Virus record (IMG/VR): IMGVR_UViG_3300044844_000075
Location: 1-23,492 of that record
Source of the DNA: a virus
DNA length: 23,492 nucleotides
Reading direction: 5' to 3' (one strand)
A model generated the notes under the pieces. The model was not told the origin of the DNA, did not search any database, and saw only the letters and a list, made by a program, of their open reading frames with translations. Made by a program: the position numbers and the translations under genes. Each line of letters begins with the position of its first letter. Positions within the stretch are counted from its first letter, which is position 1. This document shows positions 1 through 17,421 of this stretch, piece after piece.

Positions 1-480
1 AGCTAAAGCCTTTTCCTCTTGATTTAAAGTTTTCCAAGCCTTTTCTGCTTTATCCCTAGATTTCTTATAATCGTATAAATCCCAAAATTCCTCAAACTGC
101 TCATCTAGTATTTTAGTTTTATTTATAGTTACAGTTCTAGTTTCAGTTTCAGTTTCCATATGCTTAGCATATGCTTTGCTAGTGCTTTCGCTTTTAGGGG
201 TTAAAGCGTTGTTTCTCCTACTTTCTGTAAACTTTTGCCTACGAATTGTCTCGTTTGACATCTTTTCATTAATGTAAAAGCCATCTTCCATCTTGAATTT
301 TTCCCAAATGTCGGAATCATATGCAGAGCATATGCTTAGCATATCCTTGTCATTTAATCTTCCTTTTTGATGCTGGAGGCATAATAGTCTAATGTATTTG
401 CCAACTTGTTCGTTAGTCATAGTAAATGTTCCACTTAAAAAATCAGAAGTGTAAAACAATACTGCTGGGTCTTTAGCCAT
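1..480 (-). CDS. DUF1376-like phage replication protein, 3' end cut by window edge
   Basis: The reading frame is open from ATG at 480 to the left edge (160 residues, C-terminus missing). The N-terminal part (residues 4-40, with PAVLFYTSDFLSGT and GKYIRLLCLQHQKGRL) matches the start of DUF1376/YdaU-type phage replication proteins, which sit where an initiator or helicase-loader gene would be. Residues 95-120 are a low-complexity linker rich in Ser, Thr and Glu. From about residue 130 the FWDLYDYKKSRDKAEKAWKTL-type segment resembles the C-terminal domain shared by many phage primosome and helicase-loader proteins. The gene has its own promoter and a structured leader (481-604). Its DNA carries iteron-like repeats in two clusters. 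A role in initiating phage replication is inferred from family resemblance and neighbours (ERF, DnaA-like, SSB-tip proteins); the exact biochemical role is not visible. Confidence 0.75.
   Translation of the reverse strand, partial: MAKDPAVLFYTSDFLSGTFTMTNEQVGKYIRLLCLQHQKGRLNDKDMLSICSAYDSDIWEKFKMEDGFYINEKMSNETIRRQKFTESRRNNALTPKSESTSKAYAKHMETETETRTVTINKTKILDEQFEEFWDLYDYKKSRDKAEKAWKTLNQEEKALA
155..176 (-). repeat. Iteron pair A (two 11-bp units) inside the replication gene
   Basis: Two adjacent 11-bp units read on the minus strand as AAGCATATGCT (176-166) and AAGCATATGGA (165-155). Together they also form a 17-bp dyad, CATATGCTTAGCATATG (157-173), with 8-bp arms and one central base. On its left the array abuts three AGTTTC hexamers (139-156) and an AT-rich tract. 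The same core recurs at 316-348 in a different reading frame. Confidence 0.6.
316..348 (-). repeat. Iteron triplet B (three 11-bp units) inside the replication gene
   Basis: Three abutting 11-bp units read on the minus strand as AAGGATATGCT (348-338), AAGCATATGCT (337-327) and CTGCATATGAT (326-316). They share the core GATATG/GCATATG with pair A. The 16-base core ATATGCTAAGCATATG is identical in both arrays, but here it is read as MLSIC and in array A as AYAKHM, so the repeat is conserved as DNA rather than as protein. Confidence 0.6.
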
Positions 481-571: not shown

Positions 572-604
572 CAAATATAACCTATTTTAACGAATATTGT
601 GCAA
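572..604 (-). promoter_or_regulatory. Bacteroidota-type promoter for the replication gene
   Basis: On the minus strand there is a perfect -7 box, TATATTTG (579-572), and an upstream TTG (604-602) separated by 22 bases. This fits the TTTG/TAnnTTTG consensus of Bacteroidota promoters, with a spacer at the long end. Transcription would start near 565, just before the structured leader. The -33 element lies in the 3' end of the upstream winged-helix gene. Confidence 0.45.
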
Positions 605-776
605 TCTGCTTCTTATTCTCTAGCTTAATAATCTTAGTCGATATATTCATTCCTTCATTCCTTAAATCGTTAATTCTTGATGCTAATCTAAAGCATCCAA
701 ATTTGTTTAAGGCATCTAATGTAGTTAGCTTCTTACCTTTGTTTAAGTAGTCTGCAATTTGTTTGTTTTGGCTCAT
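582..776 (-). CDS. Small winged-helix/HTH protein
   Basis: This is a 64-residue basic protein. Residues 3-50 (IADYLNKGKKLTTLDALNKF, then RLASRINDLRNEGMNI) have the helix, helix, recognition helix and wing layout of short phage winged-helix proteins, in which a conserved R-L-x-x-x-I-x-x-L-R motif forms the recognition helix. It starts at ATG 776, 23 bases after the SSB-tip gene, and is the last gene before the promoter at 572-604. A DNA-binding role, possibly in control of the replication gene just downstream, is inferred. The fold call comes from sequence pattern only. Confidence 0.65.
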   Translation of the reverse strand: MSQNKQIADYLNKGKKLTTLDALNKFGCFRLASRINDLRNEGMNISTKIIKLENKKQIAQYSLK

Positions 777-799: not shown

Positions 800-1036
800 T
801 TAAAACGGCAAATCATCTTCGCTTTCTTGTTGGTTTACTGGGGTTGCGTATTCCATTTTAGTTTCGGCTTTAGGCTTGTAATCATTAGGATAGATTTTGT
901 AATCTGGTTCTTTTGATTCAGGCTTTTTATATTGATTTAACCACATTGAGTAGCGTTTGTCCTCAATAGTAAATTCAATTACTTCGCCTTTTGATGTTGT
1001 TTTTTTCCAAGCACCATAGTTTTGTTTCTTTTCCAT
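800..1036 (-). CDS. Small protein with SSB-type C-terminal tip
   Basis: This is a 78-residue protein. Residues 8-35 look like a short beta-rich segment (GEVIEFTIEDKRYSMWL). Residues 36-72 are a charged, proline-containing linker. The last five residues are DDLPF (74-78), preceded by acidic residues. In bacterial single-stranded DNA binding proteins an acidic tip ending DDLPF or DDIPF docks SSB partner proteins such as primase, RecO, RecQ and exonuclease I. The N-terminal part is too short for a full OB fold. The gene sits with ERF and replication genes. I infer a DNA-metabolism protein that uses or competes for SSB-partner sites; whether it binds DNA itself is unknown. Confidence 0.55.
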   Translation of the reverse strand: MEKKQNYGAWKKTTSKGEVIEFTIEDKRYSMWLNQYKKPESKEPDYKIYPNDYKPKAETKMEYATPVNQQESEDDLPF

Positions 1037-1236: not shown

Positions 1237-1432
1237 TCATTCTAGAGAATGGCTTAGGCTGGGTTAATAATGGGGTTAATGGGTAATGTTTAGACTTGTA
1301 GTCTTTTAGGTTTTGTCTTGCCTTTACAAGTTCCTGATAGGTTTCATTTATCCAAAACTTATGACAAGCACTATGTTTCCATTCCCAATAAGAAACCAAG
1401 TCTCTTAGTTTGATTAGTTTTTGGTCAATCAT
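1199..1432 (-). CDS. Hypothetical early protein
   Basis: This 77-residue basic protein is not one I recognise. It is rich in Lys, Tyr and Trp, with a helical N-terminal half (KLIKLRDLVSYWEWKHSA) and a proline-rich turn near residues 50-60. Its ATG at 1432 overlaps the stop of the ERF gene in an ATGA, so translation is probably coupled to it. The close linkage suggests a role in the recombination/replication module, but the sequence shows no catalytic motif. Confidence 0.55.
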   Translation of the reverse strand: MIDQKLIKLRDLVSYWEWKHSACHKFWINETYQELVKARQNLKDYKSKHYPLTPLLTQPKPFSRMNDWTENYENYAD

Positions 1433-1983
1433 AATTTAGATTTTTTGCTAGTGAATAATGCAGTAATTCCGTCATTCATCAAATCTTTATTCAAAGTATG
1501 AAGTTTAGCTAATTCGTTTAAGTTTTCGCACATATCAATAGCTAATGTTAAATCTAGTATTGACTTGTGTTTCTTAATAAATACGGATGCAGTTTTCTCT
1601 CCAGAGGCATCGGTATCTTTATCAGTTACCAACCCAAGAGCAGCAGATAGGGCATATCTCCTGTAATAAGTAATACCACTACCGAATGATTGATACTCGT
1701 TCATACCTCTAAGAGTAATTTGTGGAATCGTTGCATTTGATTCAATTGCCTCTCCACTAATAGTGTGAAAGATAATTGTCTTTAAGCCATCTTCAATAAG
1801 AAGCTGGGTAAATCCTAGATTGTGTTTCTTGAGTATCGGATTGATTACTTCAAGAATTGTAGGGAAATCGGCATATGTGTAATTATGCCCAGTCGTTCCC
1901 TTGTGAATTACAGGGCATTCCTGCTGAAAAGCAGCTAAAGCCTTGTAAATGTTGATAAGTGAGTTTGTTTGTAAGTTAATCAT
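1429..1983 (-). CDS. erf: ERF family single-strand annealing protein
   Basis: This is a 184-residue protein, close to the usual size of short ERF (P22 Erf-like) recombinases. Family hallmarks are the YTYADFPTI block (residues 35-43), the GSGITYYRRYALSAALGL core (101-118) and the acidic DKDTDA stretch after it (121-126). Such proteins coat single-stranded DNA and anneal complementary strands during phage recombination and genome circularisation. It lies directly downstream of a DnaA domain IV-like gene and is translationally coupled to the next gene. No exonuclease partner is visible in the window. Confidence 0.9.
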   Translation of the reverse strand: MINLQTNSLINIYKALAAFQQECPVIHKGTTGHNYTYADFPTILEVINPILKKHNLGFTQLLIEDGLKTIIFHTISGEAIESNATIPQITLRGMNEYQSFGSGITYYRRYALSAALGLVTDKDTDASGEKTASVFIKKHKSILDLTLAIDMCENLNELAKLHTLNKDLMNDGITALFTSKKSKL

Positions 1984-2042: not shown

Positions 2043-2384
2043 TTATATTAATCTTTTTATTTCGTTTAATTCATCCTTTAAATCGGTATCGTAATGCAAG
2101 TTTATAGTGTTTTGTATAGTCTTTAAAGAGTGTATAATCGTAGTGTGGTCTCTGCCTACCATATCTGCAATTGCCTTTAATGTTAAAGTTGTGTTATTTT
2201 TTATACAATACATTGCTATAAATCTAGCTTTAACAAAATGCCTTTTCCTACTTTTGCCTTTAATGTCCTTAGGTAATATTTTGTAATATTCTGCAATTTT
2301 ATCTATAATTGTTTCAGAATACTTAATCATTTCCTTCGTTGTCAGTCTGCTCTCTTTTTGACTTGGTATTGACCAGTAGTTCAT
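2043..2384 (-). CDS. Stand-alone DnaA domain IV-like DNA-binding protein
   Basis: This is a 113-residue protein. Residues 18-95 match the C-terminal DNA-binding domain of the replication initiator DnaA, including the basic helix (KSRKRHFVKARFIAMYCI) and the signature GRDHTTIIHSLKTI (77-90), whose Arg-Asp-His-Thr-Thr residues contact the DnaA box. The AAA+ ATPase and domains I-II are absent, so it can bind DnaA boxes but cannot form the ATP-driven initiator filament itself. It could load host DnaA or DnaB at a phage origin, compete with host DnaA, or act as a regulator. Its start overlaps the end of a small leucine-zipper-like gene by 62 bases. Confidence 0.85.
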   Translation of the reverse strand: MNYWSIPSQKESRLTTKEMIKYSETIIDKIAEYYKILPKDIKGKSRKRHFVKARFIAMYCIKNNTTLTLKAIADMVGRDHTTIIHSLKTIQNTINLHYDTDLKDELNEIKRLI

Positions 2385-3488: not shown

Positions 3489-3521
3489 AAAAAAAGGGGG
3501 GACAAGTAGAAACAAGTCCCC
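3489..3521 (-). terminator. Second tandem intrinsic terminator of the late operon
   Basis: Read on the minus strand, GGGGAC (3521-3516) pairs with GTCCCC (3503-3498) around a 12-base loop. This is followed by two C and then seven T (3495-3489). It lies 41 bases beyond the first terminator. Confidence 0.65.
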
Positions 3522-3551
3522 GCTAAACCATTAGTATATCTGAATACAAAT

Positions 3552-3586
3552 ATAATAAAAACTCCCCAGCTTTTTACACTGAGGAG
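3552..3586 (-). terminator. First intrinsic terminator of the late operon
   Basis: Read on the minus strand, CTCCTCAG (3586-3579) pairs with CTGGGGAG (3569-3562), eight pairs with one G-U, around a 9-base loop. This is followed by TTTTTATTAT. It starts 25 bases after the stop of the HExxH gene and closes the long late transcript. Confidence 0.75.
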
Positions 3587-3610
3587 AACCTATGAACAAG
3601 AAAAAACAAC

Positions 3611-3880
3611 CTAAATTGAACCATCTTGCAAAGGCAGGTCGATTGTATCATCAATTTTCCGATACCCTTCACTCCACAAGACTTTAGTCAAAGTTACACT
3701 TTTGCGAATTATGGTTTTTTCATCATCCTTTGGGTTTAATAAATGTAATATCTCGTGAATTAATATCTCCATCATTTTCTTACCTTTTAGCCTTTCATCA
3801 ATCTCTATTACTCCATCACTAGAGGATATGCCGTAAGCCTGTTCCTTACCAAGTTTACGATATATGATTTTGATTCTCAC
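3611..3880 (-). CDS. Small HExxH metallopeptidase-like protein
   Basis: This is an 89-residue protein. The segment MMEILIHEILHLLNPKDDEK carries HEILH (residues 42-46), the zinc-binding and catalytic motif of gluzincin/SprT-like metallopeptidases, set in a hydrophobic helix as usual. The preceding DGVIEIDERLKG strand is like the segment before the active helix in M78/SprT-type folds. A third zinc ligand is not obvious; a Glu or His after residue 50 would be needed. The start is GTG at 3880, overlapping the upstream stop in GTGA. It is the last gene of the late unit. Peptidase activity is inferred from the motif only; a non-catalytic zinc fold is possible. Confidence 0.6.
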   Translation of the reverse strand: MRIKIIYRKLGKEQAYGISSSDGVIEIDERLKGKKMMEILIHEILHLLNPKDDEKTIIRKSVTLTKVLWSEGYRKIDDTIDLPLQDGSI

Positions 3881-4062
3881 GCTTTCAGTAAGGCTTCATC
3901 TGGTCTTTCAATCTCCTTTACTACGATTTTATTGCCACCTCTTATCTTGGCTAACATCTTACTTACTGATTCTACTTCGCTAATCATCTCTTGATACTTC
4001 TTTACTAACCAGCTTTCTTGTTCTGATATGTTTAAACGATTCCAATTTTTAGGCATCTTCAT
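3877..4062 (-). CDS. Hypothetical helical protein
   Basis: This 61-residue protein is not one I recognise. It starts MKMPKNWNRL, then forms a charged helix (EQESWLVKKYQEMISEVESVSKMLAKI) with coiled-coil character and a short basic tail. ATGs at codons 1 and 3 are both possible. It lies 10 bases after the metallophosphoesterase and is coupled by GTGA to the HExxH gene, so the two may act together. Confidence 0.5.
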   Translation of the reverse strand: MKMPKNWNRLNISEQESWLVKKYQEMISEVESVSKMLAKIRGGNKIVVKEIERPDEALLKA

Positions 4063-4072
4063 AGTTTTTTAT

Positions 4073-5089
4073 TTAAAATACTTTTCCTTTTGTTATTCTC
4101 TTATTGTGAACTCTATAATCTCCATTAGTCTCTTTCTCTAGTAAAGCAAACCCAGCATTATACTGGTCCACGTGCTTACAATACTCAACGTTCGGATGCA
4201 TTAGCATTCCAGTTGTCCAACAAGTAAACATTTCGCCATCAAATTGGTTCTTAGTAGTGTACTCGCTTGTCCTATGAACGTGAGATGCAATAGCCGATTG
4301 CTTAACCCTATCGTAAAGGGTCTTAGCAGGGCTTACACCGCTTCCTCTCTTAAAAGTAGTATCTCCGTGTATAATTGGCAACTTGCCAAATTTAACGTGG
4401 TCTAAGTTCTTTAGAGGCTTTATCCCAAATTCATTTAGCTTCAACAAATCTTCTAACTCGAACAATTGCAAACTTAACAATTCTGGTGCTTTTGTCCTCA
4501 TATATCTTTCGTAGCGAAATTCGTGATTTGCATCCAAATTGTAATAAATAATTAAATTAGGGAATGACCTTCTTATAAATCCTAGCATCTCTAATATGCT
4601 CTCATATTCATCGTTAAACTTTCTTACTCTTGGGTCTTTTTGGAAGTCGCTTAATTGGTAGAAATCCACTAAGTCGCCATTTATAAATAACGTATCTATC
4701 CCTTCTTTGTTTAAGTAGTTAAAGCAAACATCTATCGCTTTTGGGTCGTGGAATGGGACTTGTATATCACTAATAAATCCCATCTTCTTAATTCCTAATG
4801 GTAAATCAAATACAACCTTTTCCTCTGCCCAAGTATCAGGTTGCACAAAATGACTGCAACTTCTTTTAGTCTTTTCTAAATATTCTTTATTGTTTACTGA
4901 AATCTTATCTGTACCAGTCTTGCCTCTGTAATAGCGTATTAGATAACGCACATTCTCTTGGTCGCTAAAGTGATTCTTATTCTCTTTAAGGATTAAACTA
5001 GCTAATGTATTTGAGGGCATCCACGCAGGATACTTTGCCAAGTAGTCTAAGACTATTTGACCACTCATTGTTGGTTTACTTCCAGCCAT
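4073..5089 (-). CDS. Calcineurin-like metallophosphoesterase with N-terminal helical domain
   Basis: This is a 338-residue protein. The phosphoesterase core spans about residues 100-300. Its motifs are SDIQVPFHD (107-115), NGDLVDFY (137-144), DANHEFR (186-192), IIHGD (239-243) and ASHVHR (268-273), which supply metal ligands Asp108, Asp139, Asn188, His241, His270 and His272. The first motif is D-I-Q where most relatives have D-x-H. Residues 7-60 look like a helix-turn-helix or winged domain, which suggests nucleic acid binding. Such enzymes hydrolyse phosphodiester or phosphomonoester bonds; the substrate is not predictable here. It sits between the endolysin and two small genes in the late unit. 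Confidence 0.8.
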   Translation of the reverse strand: MAGSKPTMSGQIVLDYLAKYPAWMPSNTLASLILKENKNHFSDQENVRYLIRYYRGKTGTDKISVNNKEYLEKTKRSCSHFVQPDTWAEEKVVFDLPLGIKKMGFISDIQVPFHDPKAIDVCFNYLNKEGIDTLFINGDLVDFYQLSDFQKDPRVRKFNDEYESILEMLGFIRRSFPNLIIYYNLDANHEFRYERYMRTKAPELLSLQLFELEDLLKLNEFGIKPLKNLDHVKFGKLPIIHGDTTFKRGSGVSPAKTLYDRVKQSAIASHVHRTSEYTTKNQFDGEMFTCWTTGMLMHPNVEYCKHVDQYNAGFALLEKETNGDYRVHNKRITKGKVF

Positions 5090-17046: not shown

Positions 17047-17421
17047 TTAATTTACTCCGTACAATTTTAATGTCCTTGCCAATTGGTCGTTTGTTAACAT
17101 TACCTTTTCCTCTTCAATATCTAAATCATCAATAGCTGGTATGCTCCAAAATGACTTAATTGATTTAGGAGATTTTTCAGTAGTGTTACTTAAATATACA
17201 ATATAGGCAAGGTTTCTAGTCCTTGCCCATTCGTTTAACTCTTGCCTTTCTTTACCCATTACGATAATAGAAAAGTCTTTCCAAGTCATCTCCCAAAACT
17301 CGTTTGGGCGTATATTACATTCAGCAGCCTTTACTAAAATATCATCCCAATTTAGCTTTGTTAGACTTTTTTTTTTCCTCTTTAGGAGTACCTTGCACTG
17401 CCGTAATTGTGTTTTGCACAA
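17047..17421 (-). CDS. Tail assembly chaperone, downstream frame (made by frameshift)
   Basis: The open frame runs to a TTG at 17421, but the part upstream of 17376 only shadows the gpG-like gene, and its first internal ATG lies inside the conserved domain (E-M-T-W). It therefore has no good start of its own and is best read as the T half of a G-T fusion made at the A10 run. The protein segment (PNEFWEMTWKDFSIIVMGKE and on) has the F-W-x-M-T pattern typical of the second tail chaperone frame. The fusion guides tape measure and tail tube assembly and is absent from the mature virion. Confidence 0.75.
   Translation of the reverse strand: MCKTQLRQCKVLLKRKKKSLTKLNWDDILVKAAECNIRPNEFWEMTWKDFSIIVMGKERQELNEWARTRNLAYIVYLSNTTEKSPKSIKSFWSIPAIDDLDIEEEKVMLTNDQLARTLKLYGVN

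Follow-up and report, generated by a model that had tools for sequence, protein, structure and literature searches.

Among described replication origins, that of phage lambda has its iterons and AT-rich DNA within the initiator gene O, and the O protein interacts with A/T-rich single strands (PMC7466680). At P1 oriL, synonymous changes in the AT-rich element within repL are reported to inhibit replication (PMC9948254). The Rep proteins of iteron plasmids (TrfA of RK2 and RepE of F) bind the repeated AT-rich sequences (13-mers) of the DUE as single strand (PMC4081077, PMC10797057). Double-strand sites followed by an array of short units that is held single-stranded are found in the combination of DnaA-boxes and DnaA-trio (PMC10797057) and in the motifs of V. 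cholerae ori2. In open-access text, we found no published origin in DUF1376-like initiators.

Here, we analyzed a stretch of viral DNA of 23,492 nucleotides (IMG/VR record IMGVR_UViG_3300044844_000075; hereafter, the window). Based on comparisons of its sequence with those of relatives, the stretch 112-348 is probably the replication origin of this phage, embedded in its own initiator gene; we estimate the probability of this at roughly 0.84. The features of the region are the following:

1-480, minus strand: initiator gene, truncated at the 3' end where the window stops (PHROG, Pfam, AlphaFold2)
112-156, minus strand: hexamer array NNA-ANT of 15 codons, third base alternating A/T; proposed unwinding element
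155-176, minus strand: iteron array 2, two 11-bp units in the linker coding region, with CATATG at 157-162 and 168-173
316-348, minus strand: iteron array 1, three 11-bp units in the N-domain coding region, with CATATG at 318-323 and 329-334 and a degenerate CATATC at 340-345
582-776, minus strand: HTH_39 winged-helix protein (Pfam PF14090, E=3e-15), directly upstream of the initiator
800-1036, minus strand: small protein of 78 aa that ends in DDLPF; no Pfam or PHROG family above the cut-off
1429-1983, minus strand: ERF-family single-strand annealing protein (PF04404, E=5e-26; PHROG Erf-like, E=3e-28)
2043-2384, minus strand: stand-alone DnaA domain IV protein (PF08299 Bac_DnaA_C, E=4e-23)

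The lambda origin in O resembles the window gene in that repeated sites for the initiator (putative in the window) and an AT-rich stretch lie mid-gene, and along the coding strand the AT-rich DNA comes downstream of the iterons, as checked on the lambda gene. A NinG gene is nearby in lambda, as in the window's group. However, the lambda iterons number four, measure 18 bp, and form a single cluster, whereas the palindromes of the window family measure 11/12 bp and form two clusters, of which one is inside the folded N-domain. Moreover, the AT-rich tract of lambda is not a phased hexamer array, and the window initiator is not a recognized member of the lambda O family. The analogy with lambda that was drawn in the first-pass annotation is apt in architecture, i.e., in the presence of iterons and an AT-rich stretch inside the initiator gene. 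P1 oriL has an AT-rich origin element inside an initiator gene, as is proposed for the window gene. However, an AT-rich region and not palindromic iterons is described for P1, and repL is unrelated to the window gene (PMC9948254). The RK2 and F origins share with the window element the iterons beside a DUE, putative in the window, of sequence-specific repeats, but they lie outside the rep gene, have 13-mers instead of hexamers, and belong with another protein family. The likeness to DnaA-boxes with DnaA-trio and to V. cholerae ori2 lies in the succession of double-strand sites and short-unit array, for which the holding as single strand is proposed here. The DnaA-trio unit 3'-(G/A)AT-5' recurs every 3 nt, whereas the window unit NNA-ANT recurs every 6 nt. 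Identity of the hexamer array with a DnaA-trio was rejected on account of this six-base unit and because a TTWTNCACA scan found no DnaA box within 1-480.

The initiator gene encodes 160 aa within the window; in L002, a near-identical relative, it encodes 216 aa. Its product matched the PHROG family of primosomal/replication initiation proteins (E=3e-9, or 2e-15 with the full-length relative). The match to Pfam DUF1376 (PF07120) was weak (E=0.002, 18.8-19.8 bits) and under the curated cut-off of 30.1; in terms of sequence, the initiator is DUF1376-like only, below the family cut-off. The Pfam and PHROG scans, which gave DUF1376-like, primosomal, and generic replication-initiation families, did not match the initiator to any Pfam O-family (lambda O) model. 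The AlphaFold2 model consists of a winged-helix-like N-domain (about residues 8-95), a disordered linker, and a helical C-domain. Residues 109-124, which are encoded by the hexamer array, have pLDDT below 50 and are predicted to be disordered. A Foldseek search with this model gave no match below E=0.6, and the best Z in VIA-align was about 5, to winged-helix domains including that of ORC2. The predicted N-domain is therefore described only as winged-helix-like. Neither lambda O nor DnaD was among the matches in these two fold comparisons, where such an absence carries no weight.

The palindrome AGCATATGCT occurs inside the initiator gene as five 11-bp units, at 155-176 and 316-348, with the sequence and positions given in the first-pass annotation. 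The unit spacing of 11 bp is about one helical turn, and the distance between the two clusters is 161 bp. Six of the seven GCATATG matches of the whole window fall inside the initiator gene. These six positions (both strands) correspond to P of about 3e-4 against a synonymous-codon null, and the best-7-mer count of 6, which is an unbiased measure, was unmatched in 3000 synonymous shuffles. The maximum of GCATATG per 250 bp in simulations was 3. For the window gene taken alone, this is a significant although modest excess of repeats. The gene contains the common core as AGC ATA TGC (SIC), GCA TAT (AY), and AAG CAT ATG (KHM). The earlier statement that more than one frame is used therefore holds, but it counted two frames where all three are used.

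Protein searches of viral contigs yielded hundreds of relatives, and the first set comprised 65 distinct genes. In these 65 genes, the repeat codons within 45-54 and 98-123 showed almost no synonymous variation, whereas for most other codons this variation was near the codon-usage expectation, i.e., near saturation. The ratios of synonymous variation were 0.00-0.07 for AGC, ATA, GCA, TAT, CAT, and the entire hexamer stretch; a few of the repeat codons depart from this, such as the Leu and Cys codons (48 and 51) and codon 105 (GCT/GCA). In relatives, the CATATG core encodes (S)IC, (A)Y(A/D), and (K)HM, and because it is thus read in three frames, it is not a product of protein selection. When the linker site C has been destroyed by an amino-acid change (GCA CTT, GCA CAT, GCA AGT), an extra AAG CAT ATG adjoins it, inserted beside the lost site as AAGCATATG. 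The coding position of array 1 also varies by subfamily (about nt 105, 120, 135, 146, and 157), while the DNA motif is kept.

The iteron type differs by subfamily as well, with GCATATGC changed to ACATATGT or GGTCATATGACC and with AACATATGT or GGTCATATGACC as the palindrome, and each change is present in both clusters, although the two encode different parts of the protein. When 67 clusters (80% identity) were compared, the share of G in the bases that flank CATATG in array 1 correlated with the share in array 2 (r=0.91; 0 of 20,000 permutations), as did the shares of A (r=0.61) and T (r=0.52). Some loci in this flank comparison were found by a scan for a DNA pattern in which the last CATATG and the first hexamers are prescribed; the scan did not select the array 1 flank or the other sites. 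These loci were excluded from the codon statistics because the scan selects codons.

For the 83 clusters that protein searches alone had brought up, the CATATG density was 5.57/kb in the initiator gene and 0.17/kb in the flanks, and 308 copies were observed compared to 199 (sd 7.4) in synonymous shuffles. At least two exact CATATG were present in the linker (array 2) in 76 of the 83 clusters, and at least one in array 1 in 67 of 83, with array 1 missing or degenerate in some clusters. As the relatives share ancestry, these counts are not independent events, and the main control is provided by the near-saturated neighboring codons of the same genes. The comparison with hundreds of relatives is strong evidence for a DNA-level element in the initiator gene. 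It bears out the first-pass annotation in that the repetition does not come from protein selection, with the same core in three frames and the synonymous sites fixed in relatives. The refuting condition named there, loss or scrambling of the repeats in close relatives with a retained protein sequence, was checked and the outcome was strongly in favor of the element: the repeats persist at synonymous sites, and they move and mutate in concert. In these alignments, the gene carries multiple copies of one candidate binding-site sequence that are conserved as DNA, as at origins of the lambda type.

The hexamer array begins at the base directly after the last iteron, with no gap. Its typical units are GAAACT/GAAAAT on the coding strand, i.e., AGTTTC/ATTTTC on the plus strand, and in the window the coding strand from 156 to 112 reads GAA ACT GAA ACT GAA ACT AGA ACT GTA ACT ATA AAT AAA ACT AAA. 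The three copies of AGTTTC initially noted at 139-156 are present, but they are not the full extent of the hexamers, as the degenerate array runs on to position 112. The AT-rich DNA noted beside array 2 was likewise confirmed: the 60-bp hexamer stretch is 81% AT, compared to 67% for the gene, and its duplex stability is at the median 2nd percentile within the gene, of which it is the part richest in AT and lowest in stability. An AT-rich, easily melted stretch thus adjoins the iterons inside the gene, as at lambda-type origins.

Phasing was counted in the 76 protein-found clusters with an HM-E anchor; the 7 clusters without the anchor were left out. After the last HM, the third bases alternate A, T, A, T in 95-100% of clusters over the first eight codons and in 83-93% over the next two, where roughly 50-75% would be expected for the same amino acids. 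The alternating run averages 12.5 codons compared to 2.35 in synonymous shuffles. In one phase, isoleucine is ATA in 81 cases and ATT in 9; in the other, it is ATA in 12 and ATT in 40 (p=4e-16). For valine, GTA prevails at 50:1 in one phase and GTT at 12:5 in the other (p=1e-8). The alternation persists where amino acids differ. Within a single array, the first two bases of the codons vary from unit to unit, and the fixed third bases are therefore not explained by slippage alone. Runs of 12-16 codons were found at the same place in 5 of the 6 initiators of the window and five related records, whereas the 244 other ORFs of these records contained one run of 13 and two of 12. The same array grammar is common to different N-domains (elemoA; Aquimarina L087/L525, with a 21-codon run) and to several C-domains. 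The junction pattern of iteron and hexamers was found in 0 of 395 bacterial genomes of the phylum of the Aquimarina genome. It is possible, and here proposed tentatively, that the phased hexamers are a new sequence-specific strand-opening element. This element would be a six-nucleotide counterpart of the DnaA-trio, read single-stranded by a factor shared among phages with differing iterons, N-domains, and C-domains. If this is true, the low-complexity E-N/E-T/V-N linkers of the initiators would be explained at the DNA level by the hexamer element.

The ERF and DnaA domain IV genes lie upstream of the initiator, and helicase genes are adjacent to it in several relatives; this agrees with the replication module proposed at first. 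The gene after the initiator encodes a DnaB-type helicase in L372, L452, and L475 (Pfam E down to 3e-86), a loader-like ATPase in L082, and a primase-helicase in L473 and elemoA. A helicase or loader directly downstream of the initiator is thus found across the family, in relatives other than the window's own group. In that group, the gene order is initiator, an ORF without recognized family, and NinG, and Pfam and PHROG recognized no helicase or loader family in the downstream ORF of the closest relatives. In L002, a 257-aa ORF (3500-4273) takes the place that P has in lambda, overlapping the initiator gene at its end, and has no convincing Pfam or PHROG family; across relatives, this slot is occupied by several unrelated small proteins. 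The phage-encoded DnaA domain IV (DNA-binding domain) protein at 2043-2384 is without ATPase. DnaA-box-like TTWTNCACA occurs in the window only at 17412 (plus strand) and 2027 (minus strand), the latter right beside the DnaA domain IV gene. The DDLPF end of the 800-1036 protein resembles the acidic tip of SSB proteins, which suggests that it may be an SSB.

If the stretch 112-348 is the origin, the winged-helix domain of the initiator would bind the helically phased palindromic iterons in both clusters, and a nucleoprotein complex would be assembled on them. This complex would strain and open the adjacent AT-rich hexamer array (GAAAMT)n. The exposed single strand would be held by the initiator or another factor, and a replicative helicase of the phage or the host would meanwhile be loaded. 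Array 2 adjoins the putative unwinding stretch, and array 1 would be an auxiliary cluster. Iteron binding by the initiator, strand opening, helicase loading, and the start of replication at 112-348 are all steps that we infer; for the binding, the winged-helix-like N-domain and the concerted iteron change are indirect pointers. GC skew showed no sign change in six records, and the detrended minimum was near the iterons in three of five long records. The synonymous-site conservation of the repeats, their concerted change, and the replication module together support the in-gene origin that the first-pass annotation had put forward as a candidate.

DNA-level constraint does not by itself specify replication and alone would also fit an operator. 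The palindromes could then be sites through which the initiator or a phage repressor regulates transcription from within the gene, with replication starting elsewhere, and palindromic, helically phased sites do suit a dimeric repressor. We nevertheless consider this improbable: the sites are about 130-325 bp into the coding region and not at a promoter, the AT-rich phased hexamer array at the last site would have no obvious role there, and the encoded protein is of replication type and beside helicases. Furthermore, dense GCATATG clusters were found only in the initiator gene in 12 whole records, with scattered copies elsewhere. Still less probable is that the initiator, when bound to these sites, serves partition or exerts negative control through handcuffing or titration, and that strand opening occurs at another origin. 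The two separate clusters resemble the control and origin clusters of iteron plasmids, and the absence or degeneration of array 1 in some clusters would be in line with this, but array 2, with its exact copies in most clusters, abuts the unwinding-like stretch and fits a core origin, for which array 1 could well be an auxiliary. Least probable, and already strongly contradicted, is that the repeats arose incidentally from the protein sequence together with replication slippage (a flexible E-T/E-N linker from tandem duplications and a conserved N-domain peptide motif): hexamer copy number does differ by whole units between near relatives, and AT-rich codon usage favors A/T third positions, but one DNA core occurs in three frames, synonymous sites stay fixed where the amino acids differ, the codon used for Ile and Val depends on the phase, and homologues sharing only the C-domain are without such an array (longest runs 3-6).

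Several relatives carry variants of these elements. In L120 (2569-3258) and its relatives L121-L136, L152, and L153, the same C-domain is combined with another N-domain (MAIFRKIHVSFW), and the gene contains 11-bp tandem repeats of another sequence (ATACAGTATNG), after which comes a GAA/CAA trimer array; it appears that the N-domain was exchanged together with its putative sites, as one unit. The initiator of Vibrio phage 1.079.O (L510, 1108-1767) has a related C-domain and GTGACA...TGTCA palindromes repeated in the linker, with no hexamer array, and from this case in-gene iterons may be general for these modular initiators. The replication protein gene of the cultured Flavobacterium phage elemoA (L348, 3755-4489) has the linker repeats TCGCATAGCGATAAAAA and then a GTAAGT-type hexamer array. 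An initiator-like gene in the bacterial genome of Aquimarina sediminis w01 (L087, 5001-5933) contains an array (ANGDVNANASINVNKNEDEDA) in which A and T alternate over 21 codons and the units are not identical. A very long (GAAACT/AAAACT)n array with a 31-codon run was found in a Clostridia MAG (L084, 5001-5762); the element or phage group may reach beyond Bacteroidota, or this bin may hold a stray contig. Many phages of the set probably infect Bacteroidota.

For a large set of environmental phages that is nearly uncharacterized, the stretch 112-348 provides a candidate replication origin open to testing, and a "simple" low-complexity protein linker proves to be a DNA element. The natural variants, with at least three iteron types that change in concert and one hexamer grammar, would allow initiator-site specificity and strand-opening signals to be derived from sequence. 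Flavobacterium phage elemoA and the Aquimarina strain that carries such a gene are cultured systems suited to tests.
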